A stretch of DNA of 64,000 bases from the NCBI RefSeq assembly GCF_038595005.1, contig NZ_CP151997.1, forward strand, positions 2,418,001-2,482,000, written 5' to 3'. Position 1 is the stretch's first letter. Every line of letters starts with the position of its first letter. The notes beneath the pieces were generated by a model that was not told the DNA's origin, did not search any database, and was given only the letters and a program-made list of their open reading frames with translations. Shown here one piece after another: positions 7,892-50,541 of this stretch. The position numbers and the translations under genes were made by a program. The DNA is from Chryseomicrobium sp. FSL W7-1435. GTDB lineage: Bacteria > Bacillota > Bacilli > Bacillales_A > Planococcaceae.

Positions 7892-8028
7892 AAGACGTCC
7901 CTCCTCCCTTTTAGTTTATCACCTTTTACCGCCTGCAACATCTTCCATCTAACTGCGTCTATAGAAACAGGCATAAAAAGTTTTTGTGCGTTATAATAAA
8001 GGGATGAAATTTAGATGTGGGTGACAGA

Positions 8029-9214: not shown

Positions 9215-9335
9215 TTAGATGTGGAGAACGCTTGCCCAGAAATCGCGTGAAAATCAGGCGCACCAAATGAGACGCTTTTTGTCTCAGTTGGGGTGAATGA
9301 TTTTTGCGTGAATTTCTAGCGTTCGCAACTTGATT
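9215..9335 (+). repeat. Long-hairpin repeat unit, family A, copy 1
   Basis: A 121-bp unit that starts with TTAGATGTGG and ends with AACTTGATT, beginning one base after the rodA stop. Nested inverted repeats fill it: GAACGCT pairs with AGCGTTC, AGAAAT with ATTTCT, and an inner GAGAC/GTCTC hairpin closes it. The same layout with different but still pairing arms occurs at 19993-20113 and in two tandem units at 49468-49715. No protein coding seen. Confidence 0.85.
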
Positions 9336-9339
9336 CCAA

Positions 9340-9421
9340 TTAGATGTGGAGAACGCTTGTCCAGAAATCGCGTGAAAATTAGCACTCCATTCGAGGTAAG
9401 ATTCACCTCGAACGGGGTGCT
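9340..9421 (-). repeat. Terminal half-unit and hairpin of the composite repeat, locus 1
   Basis: A second TTAGATGTGG start lies 125 bp after the first, but only its left arm follows (9340-9380). It then gives way to a strong hairpin at 9381-9421 (arms AGCACTCCATTCGAGGT and its near complement, loop about 7 nt). Read on the minus strand, the order is 21-bp array, hairpin, CCACATCTAA, full long-hairpin unit, the same order as at 49330-49725. Confidence 0.75.
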
Positions 9422-9522
9422 TTTGTGATTACGACATTAATTTTATTTATTAGTACACTAATTACTTTTATTAAGACATTAATTTGTTTGATTAGAACAT
9501 TAATTTTTTTCATTAGTACATT
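9418..9522 (-). repeat. Array of five 21-bp repeats, locus 1
   Basis: On the minus strand five units of exactly 21 bp start at 9522, 9501, 9480, 9459 and 9438. Each begins AATGT (once AGTGT), has ATR/ATC at positions 10-12 and mostly ends in ATT. A leader resembling TAGTTTCCATAA precedes the first unit, as in the 49-kb locus. A reading frame of heptads (Asn-Val-x-Ile...) runs through it, but it has no usable start upstream, so I treat it as noncoding. The plus-strand reading frame across it is also not a convincing gene. Confidence 0.8.
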
Positions 9523-9603
9523 CCTGATGTTATGGAAACTATTTTTACTTCAAACGTCCATCTTACACTCCCTGCTCACATTGTTGATTTATAAAATGAG
9601 CAA

Positions 9604-19992: not shown

Positions 19993-20113
19993 TTAGATGT
20001 GGAGAACGTCATGCTAGAAAGTCCGAGAAAATCAGGCGTGCCAAGTGAGGCGCTCTTGGCCTCGGTTGGTGCGACTGCTTTTGGAGCGTCTTTCTGACGT
20101 TCGCAACTCGATT
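19993..20113 (+). repeat. Long-hairpin repeat unit, family A, copy 2
   Basis: 121-bp unit with the same end motifs as the copy at 9215 (TTAGATGTGG ... AACTCGATT). Arms differ but still pair: GAACGTCA with TGACGTTC, AGAAAG with CTTTCT, inner GAGGC/GCCTC. It sits between the convergent cls and VanY genes. No 21-bp array is attached here; instead a short family B derivative abuts it at 20115. Confidence 0.85.
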
Positions 20114-48118: not shown

Positions 48119-49014
48119 CAGTAAGTATCCGTGTGCCAGCGAGTACCGCTAATTTAGGACCGGGTTTTGATTCCATTGGAGTAGCTTTACCCTTCTATTT
48201 AACTGTTGAAGCATCTCCTCACGAATTTTGGGAAGTGATTCATGAAGGCGCACATCTTCCACCGGTTGAAGATGTGCCTACTCATTTAATTTTTCAGACA
48301 GCCTGTGAGCTCGCGCATCGTCACGGAAAAGTAATGCCGTCCCTTCGTCTACATCTAACAAGTGAAATTCCTCTTGCACGAGGGCTAGGAAGCAGTGCAG
48401 CTGCCATTGTAGCCGCTTGTTTACTGGCGAACCATTTTGCAGAGCTGGACTTGGAGAAAGCCGACCTTCTAGAGTTTGCTTCCCTTTGCGAAGGTCACCC
48501 GGATAATGTCGCCGCAGCTCTCTACGGAGGTTGCATCGTGAGTTATCATTCCTCGGAGCAGTTGGTTTTCTCACGTTTCGAACTTCCTACTTTTCAGTGG
48601 CTACTAGCTATCCCGGCTATAGAATTGAAAACAGAGAAAGCGCGACAAGTGTTGCCAGCAAGCTACACACGTGAGCAAGCTGTTGCAAGTAGTGCAGCTG
48701 CCAACATGTTAGTCGCTGGACTTGCTACGGATAATCACCAACTTGTCGGTTCCATGATGAGTTGCGATCAGTTCCATGAACCCTACCGAATGTCGCTCAT
48801 CCCATCTGCATCTGATTATAAAGCGTTTGTAAATGGGTTAGGCGCATATGGAACGGCTATCAGTGGAGCAGGTCCGACGTTGATTTCAGTCATTCCTCCG
48901 TGTTTCGATGTTATGTCAGTTCAGGAGAAGTTCCCGCACTTCAAACTCTATAAGGTTTCTACAGCTCCCTTTGGCGCAGAGCTTAGCCTACAAAAAATCA
49001 GCATGTTCTCATAA
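48115..49014 (+). CDS. thrB: Homoserine kinase
   Basis: 299-residue GHMP kinase that phosphorylates homoserine for Thr[17 protein letters not shown], the ATP loop [16 protein letters not shown] and [14 protein letters not shown] are the three GHMP motifs in order. The ATG overlaps the thrC stop (ATGA) and has GAGGAGG before it; an upstream frame from 48037 is not initiated. The C-terminal codons are within the terminator stem. Confidence 0.96.
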
Positions 49015-49045
49015 ATTTTCATGAGAACATGCTGATTTATTTAAT
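48996..49045 (+). terminator. Terminator after thrB
   Basis: AATCAGCATGTTCTCAT pairs perfectly with ATGAGAACATGCTGATT over about 17 bp, 8-nt loop, then T-rich sequence. It overlaps the last four codons of thrB. Confidence 0.92.
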
Positions 49046-49077
49046 TCTTGTTGTGTAACTCAATTTGAGACGGGTGT

Positions 49078-49202
49078 TTAGTTTCCATAAAAGCAGCAAT
49101 GTAAGAGTGGGAACCGCTAACGTCAGAATGGGCAAAGTTAATGTAAGAATGGAAGAAGCTAATGTCACAATCAATGCACTTAATGTAATAATCATCCAAC
49201 TA
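49078..49202 (+). repeat. Array of five 21-bp repeats, locus 2, first copy
   Basis: Leader TTAGTTTCCATAA is followed by 21-bp units starting at 49098, 49119, 49140, 49161 and 49182, each beginning AAYGT. About 115 bp of it is repeated almost without change 232 bp downstream. A heptad reading frame (Asn-Val-Arg-Met/Val...) runs through it from a TTG without a ribosome-binding site; I do not call a gene. Confidence 0.85.
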
Positions 49203-49309
49203 AAGTATTTCTCCAATACATACTTTATGATTTTTCTAGGAAGGGCTTTTGATACTCAAGATCTTACTAGGAAAAAGCTTCAACACATTTAGGGGTTCTG
49301 GCTGCGAGA
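49203..49309. other. Spacer between the two array copies
   Basis: About 107 bp of AT-rich sequence between the duplicated arrays. I see short imperfect palindromes but no gene, promoter or further repeat unit in it. Confidence 0.5.
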
Positions 49310-49434
49310 TTAGTTTCCATAAAAGCAGCAATGTAAGAGTGGGAACCGCTAACGTCAGAATGGGCAAAGTTAATGTAAGAATGGAAGAAGCTAATGTCAC
49401 AATCAATGCACTTAACGTCACAATCAAAAACGCC
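49310..49434 (+). repeat. Array of five 21-bp repeats, locus 2, second copy
   Basis: Same leader and units as 49078-49202, with units starting at 49330, 49351, 49372, 49393 and 49414. The last unit runs into AATCAAAAACGCC, the same junction (AATCA.AAA.GC) as at the end of the 9.4-kb array, followed by a hairpin. The two arrays in this locus are 232 bp apart and differ in the fifth unit. Confidence 0.87.
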
Positions 49435-49467
49435 CCCAGGGAAATGGTTCTTTTCCCGAGCGGCGTT
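49429..49467 (+). repeat. Junction hairpin of the composite repeat, locus 2
   Basis: AACGCC/GGCGTT and GGGAAA/TTTCCC nested arms enclose a 6-nt loop, ending exactly at CCACATCTAA (49468). The counterpart at 9381-9421 has unrelated arm sequences but the same position. Confidence 0.8.
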
Positions 49468-49591
49468 CCACATCTAACTCAATCGAGTTCCAGGCGTTAG
49501 AAATACATTCGAAAATCAATTGCACACATAGAGGCATAGAGCACCTCTATGCACACCCTTGATTCCCGAAGCATTTCTAGGCAAACGCCTT
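49468..49591 (-). repeat. Long-hairpin repeat unit, family A, copy 3
   Basis: 124-bp unit beginning CCACATCTAA on plus (TTAGATGTGG on minus), with CAAGTT-type end motif next to it. Arms AGGCGTT/AACGCCT and AGAAAT/ATTTCT pair, and an inner TAGAGG/CCTCTA hairpin closes it. Tandem with the next unit at about 97% identity. Confidence 0.87.
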
Positions 49592-49725
49592 CCACATCTA
49601 ACTCAATCAAGTTCCAGGCGTTAGAAATACATTCGAAAATCAATTGCACACATAGAGGTATAGAGCACCTCTATGCGCACCCTTGATTCCCGAAGCATTT
49701 CTAGGCAAACGCCTTCCACATCTAA
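49592..49725 (-). repeat. Long-hairpin repeat unit, family A, copy 4
   Basis: Second tandem 124-bp unit (49592-49715) plus the closing CCACATCTAA motif (49716-49725), which ends 3 bp before the ZIP transporter stop codon. It differs from copy 3 at only a few positions. Confidence 0.87.
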
Positions 49726-49728
49726 AAA

Positions 49729-50541
49729 TTAAACAGAAAATAGCACTAAACTTGCTGCCATTACCATCATTCCAGCGACTACTCCATAAATTGATGAGTG
49801 TGCCTCGTCGAATTCTTTAGCGGCCGGCAATAGCTGATCTAGTGAAATAAACACCATAATCCCAGCTACTCCTGCAAACACTATACCGAACATGATATCT
49901 GACAAAAATGGCATTAAGATTAAAAACGCCACAATTGCACCGACCGGTTCTGCTAAACCTGATAGAAATGATAACTTGAAGGCACGCTTTCGACTCCCCG
50001 TCGCATAATAAATAGGAACTGCTACAGCTATCCCTTCTGGAATATTGTGAATGGCCACAGCAATTGCAATGGCGATACCTAAGCTCGGGTCAGCCATTGC
50101 GGACATAAACGTTGCAATCCCCTCAGGAAAGTTATGAATACCAATAGCTAGTGCAGTGAACATCCCCATTTTCATCAAGCGAGCATGCTCTGCAGGTGTA
50201 GGCCCTTCATCCATCGCCTCTACAGACTTCACTTCATGCGGGTTACCTAAAGACGGCAATAGCCGGTCTATCAAGCCAATAAGGAGCATACCCCCGAAGA
50301 ATCCTACCAATGTCATCCAGTAGCCATTTGTTGCTCCGAGCTCTGCCACTAAAGCATCTTTTGCCTTAAAGAAAATTTCAACTAGCGCTACAAAAATCAT
50401 GACCCCCGCCGAAAAACCAAGGGAAACTGATAAAAACTTTTTATTTGTTCGTGAAGTAAAAAGCGCTATTAAGCTACCAATCCCTGTTGCTAGTCCTGCT
50501 AAAACCGTTAACCCCAGTGCAAAGAGAACATTCCCATCCAT
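49729..50541 (-). CDS. ZIP family metal transporter
   Basis: 270-residue eight-helix ZIP transporter (GufA/ZupT-like). The metal-path motifs are on two helices: HNFPEGIATF (near residue 137) and HNIPEGIAVAVP (near 165). It imports zinc or other divalent cations (Mn, Fe, Co in relatives). A charged loop (about 95-125) is present where many ZIPs have a His-rich loop, but few His occur. ATG behind TAGGATG. No Zur-like site was recognised. Confidence 0.92.
   Translation of the reverse strand: MDGNVLFALGLTVLAGLATGIGSLIALFTSRTNKKFLSVSLGFSAGVMIFVALVEIFFKAKDALVAELGATNGYWMTLVGFFGGMLLIGLIDRLLPSLGNPHEVKSVEAMDEGPTPAEHARLMKMGMFTALAIGIHNFPEGIATFMSAMADPSLGIAIAIAVAIHNIPEGIAVAVPIYYATGSRKRAFKLSFLSGLAEPVGAIVAFLILMPFLSDIMFGIVFAGVAGIMVFISLDQLLPAAKEFDEAHSSIYGVVAGMMVMAASLVLFSV

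Follow-up and report, generated by a model that had tools for sequence, protein, structure and literature searches.

Bacterial intergenic repeats are usually grouped by one consensus. Plasmid iterons are direct repeats about two helical turns apart, present in a handful of copies with a class-specific motif, as in the arrays described below; unlike iterons, these arrays are chromosomal and dispersed at dozens of gene ends, and no rep gene was noticed beside them in the loci that we read. The BOX elements of Streptococcus pneumoniae have a middle unit larger than the unit found here. According to the accessible part of a previous study (PMC3049150), BOX elements are mosaics of modules with a repeatable middle, are enriched between convergent genes and are nested with other repeats, in all of which they resemble the present elements, but they possess terminal inverted repeats and target duplications, and a tight spacing from terminators is not described in that part of the study. 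The BrickBuilt MITE of Porphyromonas gingivalis, as presented in the consulted part of PMC4596501, is likewise intergenic and similar in having a leader, a tail and internal 23-nt tandem repeats, one half of which is conserved and the other variable; 10 of its 19 copies are flanked by predicted terminators or polyadenylation sites, and the repeat number varies between strains. It differs in its IS5-like terminal inverted repeats and in the long predicted stem-loops formed by the 23-nt repeats (PMC4596501, same part), whereas the arrays here have unlike ends, are unstructured, and carry about five units with at least eight motif classes on one leader. REP and REPIN sequences resemble the hairpin units described here in being small palindromes scattered through the genome that bear a conserved tag at the hairpin foot (PMC3733652, available portion), but the units here are 124 bp long, stand in tandem, carry CCACATCTAA at one end and are lacking beside both RAYT-like genes of this genome. 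On the available portions of these papers, our best reading is that pneumococcal BOX and Porphyromonas BrickBuilt are the nearest published kinds and that the elements described here are a distinct variant; in a literature search that had subscription journals mostly outside its scope, we recognised no description of these repeats.

The window analysed here is a stretch of 64,000 nt of Chryseomicrobium sp. FSL W7-1435 (Planococcaceae; contig NZ_CP151997.1, positions 2,418,001 to 2,482,000). Within it, thrB ends at 49014 and the stop codon of the convergent ZIP gene starts at 49729, and the gap between them (49015-49728) contains two copies of a AGTTTCCATAA leader with five 21-bp units, a terminator-like hairpin, two 124-bp hairpin units and a closing CCACATCTAA, so that the coordinates and repeats bear out the parts list of the preliminary description. 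At the end of thrB, an inverted repeat with 24-nt arms and a 2-nt loop followed by T-rich sequence (48992-49041, forward strand) is likely the thrB terminator. The first array copy consists of the leader AGTTTCCATAAAAGCAGC (49080-49097), a member of the leader family, and five 21-bp units (49098-49202) of class A by the class consensus; the second has the same 18-nt leader (49312-49329) and five class A units (49330-49434), all on the forward strand, and a CTAG-rich spacer separates the copies. By inspection, a CTAG-centred near-palindrome in the spacer, TTTTCTAGGAAGGGCTT...AAGATCTTACTAGGAAAAAGCTT (49232-49280), recurs beside arrays elsewhere. The array copies form a direct repeat of 117 nt (49078-49194 versus 49310-49426, 97% identity), and their fifth units are unlike (AATGTAATAATCATCC.. 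in the first, AACGTCACAATCAAAA.. in the second); hence the array duplication reported previously comprises the leader and units 1-4 and does not extend to unit 5. The feature described as a hairpin before the first CCACATCTAA is present, and by inspection it is a GC-rich hairpin followed by TTTTT on the reverse strand (49426-49466) that reads as an intrinsic terminator of the ZIP gene; similar layouts were seen at loci L084, L093, L099 and L033. The boundary motif CCACATCTAA starts on the forward strand at 49468 (49468-49477), 49592 and 49716, and the two forward hairpin units, each of 124 bp with its closing CCACATCTAA included, occupy 49478-49601 (delimited by the direct repeat and by covariation) and 49602-49725. 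They belong to a direct repeat of 124 nt (49463-49586 versus 49587-49710) with 97% identity, which agrees with the earlier statement that the tandem units are nearly alike, and the final CCACATCTAA stops 3 nt short of the ZIP stop codon.

The same order of parts had been proposed for 9.2-9.5 kb of the window, and it is real but lies on the opposite strand: a leader (9523-9540) with five class A 21-bp units (9418-9540, reverse) and one hairpin unit (9215-9349, reverse) between CCACATCTAA motifs at 9340-9349 and 9215-9224, the outer one 1 nt from the stop codon of the adjacent gene. A further single hairpin unit of the same family is located at 19993-20112 (reverse) with no leader found beside it. 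A solitary CCACATCTAA without a recognised hairpin was also observed at 8011-8020 on the reverse strand. In the whole 2.71-Mb genome (G000), TTCCACATCTAA occurs 43 times and the reversed pattern 0 times, and leader matches (RGTTTCCATAA) number 61 in G000, 81 in Chryseomicrobium aureum DSM 105437 (G001), and 19 and 12 in two remoter congeners (G002 and G003), with 3, 3, 6 and 3 matches of the reversed controls. Similar loci are thus abundant in all three congeners searched, which contradicts the reading of the gap as a decayed unique region. The class A array pattern matched in 4 of 261 family genomes, all of this genus, and the searched pattern also matched in a record named Tetzosporium hominis. 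The idea of a modular intergenic element with amplification was strengthened by seven tandem hairpin units at 703 kb of G000. Array, hairpin and CCACATCTAA do not form the single composite that had been suggested, however: arrays and hairpin units occur together at some loci and separately, or beside other repeats, at others, and the content of the gap is two dispersed non-coding families side by side.

For the array family, 73 arrays were taken from 86 distinct leader matches in the examined loci as those with lag-21 identity of at least 0.40 (38 in G000, 34 in G001, 1 in G003; 16 of the 73 sit in mechanically open frames); the examined loci include 41 of the 81 leader matches of G001, and in G000 leader matches listed to 1.46 Mb and, beyond, loci known from other searches. 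Hand-written patterns, which 2 of the 73 arrays did not fit, assigned them to at least eight sequence classes that have in common the leader, the 21-bp pitch and about five units. The unit consensus is AAtGTcA.AATgg in class A, cAGGgCACAAAaa in class G, tcGGtAGAA.AAAt in class H and tcGGtCGTTAA in class E, and units of different classes are on average 0.24-0.40 identical, which ranges from about chance level to a weak resemblance. The spacing was measured 208 times and came to 21 bp in 193 cases, 20 bp in 10, 13 bp in four and 29 bp in one. In each of the six classes compared, unit k is closest to unit k at other loci, from 0.67 versus 0.44 for other units in class C down to 0.60 versus 0.58 in class E, where the difference is only slight. 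A CRISPR array was rejected, as same-numbered units are alike across loci and there are no unique spacers between identical repeats. The array at L108 of C. aureum has been amplified again in double units of 42 bp, which indicates slippage inside arrays; CTAG palindromes recur between arrays, and a one-unit array followed by such a palindrome (AAAGTTCTTGCTAGCAAGAACTTT at L122) is kept in two species (L122/L112). Could the 21-bp units be coding sequence for a small protein made of heptapeptide repeats? Frame +1 of class A is open in 11 of 13 arrays, but the six frames are open in 21, 15, 0, 17, 33 and 6 of the 73 arrays, none of them in all classes, and the 20-bp spacings shift the frame, so we consider coding almost certainly wrong. 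The arrays could themselves account for spurious heptapeptide-like ORFs in gene predictions. Relative to shuffles, classes B, C and H are clearly more curved and D weakly so, as computed from wedge values, while A, E, G and I are not, and intrinsic curvature was therefore dropped as a common property of the arrays. From its regular pitch, an array may be a series of sites for a binding protein that lie two helical turns apart and so face the same side of the DNA.

Array copies at different loci end abruptly on the left. Among 42 array pairs of at least 80% identity, which are clustered and not independent, 31 are no more than 50% identical over the 20 nt preceding AGTTTCC, a segment in which unrelated arrays have a mean identity of 0.36; these near-identical pairs thus share nothing left of AGTTTCC, and the left end is sharp. 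In the remaining 11 pairs the left flank is more than 50% identical, indicating that some copies come from larger duplications. At L084/L106 the match spans AGTTTCC to CCACATCTAA and the sequences are unlike outside it; no target-site duplication was seen at the two pairs placed side by side, L084/L106 included, and the bare orthologous gap is too divergent to read for one. Terminal inverted repeats are absent by inspection, as the left AGTTTCCATAA and the right end read on the reverse strand, TTAGATGTGG, share at most TTAG. The elements are, like MITEs, short, dispersed and without coding capacity and, like BOX, they have constant ends and a repeatable middle module between genes; conserved secondary structure is found in the hairpin units and not in the arrays.

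Orthologous gaps across Chryseomicrobium show both presence and absence of the insert. The thrB-ZIP gap of G002 and G003 is a short bare terminator without the insert, and that of G001 has a class G array and another hairpin in the same place. Twelve orthologous gaps of G000 and G001 were compared, all from examined loci chosen for carrying elements, so the following counts are not turnover rates: the class is kept at three (L125/L108, L126/L109 and the one-unit L122/L112); the position is kept and the class changed at six (thrB-ZIP/L067, L129/L098, L130/L104, L039/L117 and two around the NERD-type gene, L021/L142); and three are otherwise different, with extra arrays (L027/L110), an array on the opposite strand (L031/L105) or none in G000 (L044/L107). 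Among classified arrays, all 17 of class H came from G001 and all 8 of class C from G000. The spread of repeats by gene conversion and unequal exchange between existing copies, with no enzyme of their own, would agree with L098/L129, where the leader and last unit are constant and the middle is swapped, with the 11 pairs sharing a left flank, with the truncated hairpins that also occur and with the 42-bp re-amplification in L108. Recombination alone does not predict the sharp left end of the 31 pairs, nor, barring a loss of the insert in G002 and G003, would it by itself create newly occupied sites like the thrB-ZIP gap; we regard it as unlikely. Taken together, the scattered distribution, the abrupt left boundary and a gap that is filled in some species and bare in others favour non-autonomous mobile elements that target gene ends.

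The position of the arrays relative to terminators is also regular. In 37 of 73 arrays, the 110 nt upstream contain a terminator-like site on the strand of the array, compared with 8 arrays for the opposite strand upstream and, downstream, 2 for the same and 8 for the opposite strand; after redundant upstream sequences were removed, the numbers were 35 of 68 on the same strand versus 8 on the opposite strand, and by the test used half of the arrays have no such site upstream. The T-run begins 12 to 79 nt before the leader, most commonly at 24-25 nt (10 of 35 arrays, all at different loci), which is about the front edge of a terminating RNA polymerase as judged from polymerase footprints. The upstream gene is co-directional in 54 of 73 arrays, and the gene arrangement is convergent in 25, with both neighbours along the array in 27, both against it in 11, divergent in 8 and unassigned in 2. 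Class B arrays at L024, L025 and L026 (G000 360, 379 and 445 kb) lie directly behind the apparent terminators of three rRNA operons, as judged by eye from 5S-like sequence upstream; some hairpin units of G002 and G003 are found where contigs end, perhaps likewise from rRNA operons. The placement behind terminators and the fixed geometry fit both a mobile element and a binding array owned by the host. The latter, our main rival explanation, supposes that a chromosomal DNA-binding protein on the five sites behind the terminator forms a roadblock or insulator against read-through or collisions and that the classes are co-evolving specificities. The constancy of pitch and unit number in every class despite the low unit identity between classes, the retention of orthologous positions with a swapped motif and a like architecture with other motifs in another genus (see below) all speak for such a host-maintained array. 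On the other side, the almost identical, sharply starting copies found at unrelated loci resemble dispersal, about 61 leader matches in a 2.7-Mb genome would serve only a small share of terminators, and the mixed gene arrangements, with only 25 of 73 convergent, mean that protection from antisense read-through is not a general explanation. We consider a host-maintained array possible but doubtful.

At the right end, we examined 57 outer CCACATCTAR motifs, 48 of which had an assignable gene on the opposite strand, and 564 control CTAA tetramers, 443 of which were used. The right end is located within -4 to +8 nt of the stop codon in 26 of 48 cases (52 of 443 controls) and within 1-8 nt in 17 of 48 (15 of 443 controls), and in nine cases, as determined mechanically with ORFs of at least 60 codons, the stop codon is formed by the element's own CTA. 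This bias toward gene ends could reflect tolerance rather than targeting. In the hairpin units, changes on both sides were found in 17 of 24 pairs among 49 aligned units (shuffled mean 14.1), pairing cells reach 94.5% versus at most 52.4% with one arm slid, and the covariation score is 0.481 versus at most 0.164 when slid; further pair types (31 versus 34.3 in shuffles) show no excess, a control that runs opposite to the other covariation measures. This strong covariation, together with the location right at stop codons, would suit a structured RNA in which hairpin units serve as 3'-UTRs or small RNAs and the arrays are accessory. Against a structured RNA, wobble cells are about equally frequent on both strands (30 G-U on the strand shown versus 28 A-C), which singles out no strand and is compatible with folding as DNA or as RNA; the predicted RNA structure of the arrays is hardly above that of shuffles (mean z -0.17 on the forward and -0.37 on the reverse strand, 73 arrays), and Rfam gave no above-threshold match in 48900-49900, where eight of nine sub-threshold matches were to microRNA models. 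We hold a structured RNA to be very unlikely. At L085, L106, L107, L113 and L114 of C. aureum, a further dispersed element, GGAGGGGCTGACTCC...GGAAAGCAGCCCCGCA..GGAACTCAACG, adjoins ends of the CCACATCTAA type.

No transposase, recombinase or binding protein linked to either family was found, Y1_Tnp being the sole genome-wide transposase search. That search gave two PF01797 (Y1_Tnp, RAYT-like) genes in G000, at L074 2727-4710 and L075 3653-5446 (about 950 and 992 kb); three congeners have one or two such genes each. REPIN-type repeats moved by such resident transposases would be consistent with these genes and with the GTGG beside the hairpin foot on the reverse strand, GTGG being reported as a variant of the GTAG tag in one species (PMC3733652). 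Each Y1 gene of G000 is flanked by two direct copies of its own palindrome, however (GGTGCCTGTCCC.. and GGTACCTGTGC.., respectively), and not by CCACATCTAA hairpins or arrays, for which reason RAYT transposases were rejected as movers and a REPIN origin appears highly improbable. The palindrome GGTACCTGTGC also adjoins hairpin-family sequence at several loci. The possibility of an autonomous copy between neighbouring arrays was dismissed too, as the genes in L021, L141, L142, L143 and L144 look ordinary from their sequence, for example a NERD-type protein. An integron attC site was dropped since the two ends carry direct and not inverted motifs, and the hairpin followed by CTAA was considered as a rolling-circle or Helitron-like 3' end. 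For a phage or plasmid origin, no match was obtained in 50,697 phage and 72,556 plasmid records, and one class H pattern had no match in viral contigs.

Beyond the genus, the hairpin covariance model matched in 15 of 81 genomes (6 of 48 genera) and the array profile in 14 of 81 genomes (9 genera). Ten of the array-profile genomes are outside the genus, including one outside the family (G043, where periods of 20 and 21 bp fit about equally), and the listed matches outside the genus start at profile positions 11-35, missing all or part of the 18-nt leader. In one other genus (G031, 29 matches; G116, 11 matches), units such as CACGTCTGAAAAA and CACGTAGGAAAAATCG stand behind leaders of their own, a description based on 20 loci, 16 of them of G031. 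Of eight loci chosen for a hairpin alone, two have a 21-bp array directly beside the hairpin unit (L157, by eye, and L158), and a third, L163, has one some 340 nt away. Several hairpins in other family genera (L156-L163) have, by eye, a GGCAAARAGCGCC-type apical loop like that of the 124-bp units, and this suggests that they and the 124-bp units are one old and wide family. In an unbiased survey, 20-kb samples were taken irrespective of repeats and compared at lags 14-30. At a threshold of 0.60, lag 21 gave 3 matches versus 1 for the other 16 lags in other family genera (400 kb; two of the three in mechanically open frames), 2 versus 0 in this genus (160 kb) and 0 versus 9 outside the family (240 kb); at 0.54, with slightly different filters, the numbers were 5 versus 12, and 2 versus 19 outside the family, and at 0.52 there was no excess at lag 21. 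The excess vanishes at looser thresholds, and a family-wide claim therefore rests on few loci. A rather unlikely candidate is an undescribed family-wide system of arrays with about five sites, spaced by two helical turns, at the front edge of terminator-stopped RNA polymerase. Each class would be cognate to its own fast-evolving recognition protein, and one class would take the place of another across the whole genome between sister species, with no change in leader, pitch or unit number.

For the loci of Chryseomicrobium, we tentatively favour, at somewhat short of an even chance, non-autonomous and gene-end-targeted modular interspersed repeats of two families that have been copied into gene ends. 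With a constant layout and an internal sequence that differs between species, the array looks like an undescribed kind of mobile intergenic element. The array element begins sharply at AGTTTCCATAA and presents about five sites spaced 20-21 bp, as would be expected of a row bound by a protein, and its class-specific site motif has been exchanged at the same loci between sister species. The hairpin element ends in CCACATCTAA and multiplies in tandem, and its terminal CTAA tends to lie at the stop codon of the neighbouring gene. In the mechanism that we envisage, a putative enzyme acting in trans, guided by the array or the hairpin, would copy the elements, and its preferred target may be the stretch of DNA immediately in front of an RNA polymerase halted by an intrinsic terminator.

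From one species to the next, the repeated units at the same loci change in sequence but not in geometry, which directs attention to a searchable recognition event, by a protein that reads sites 21 bp apart. It also raises the question whether such a reader acts on the DNA ahead of a terminating polymerase. If the arrays are mobile, they would be an element class aimed at terminators; if they are owned by the host, they would represent a new component of gene ends in the family Planococcaceae.
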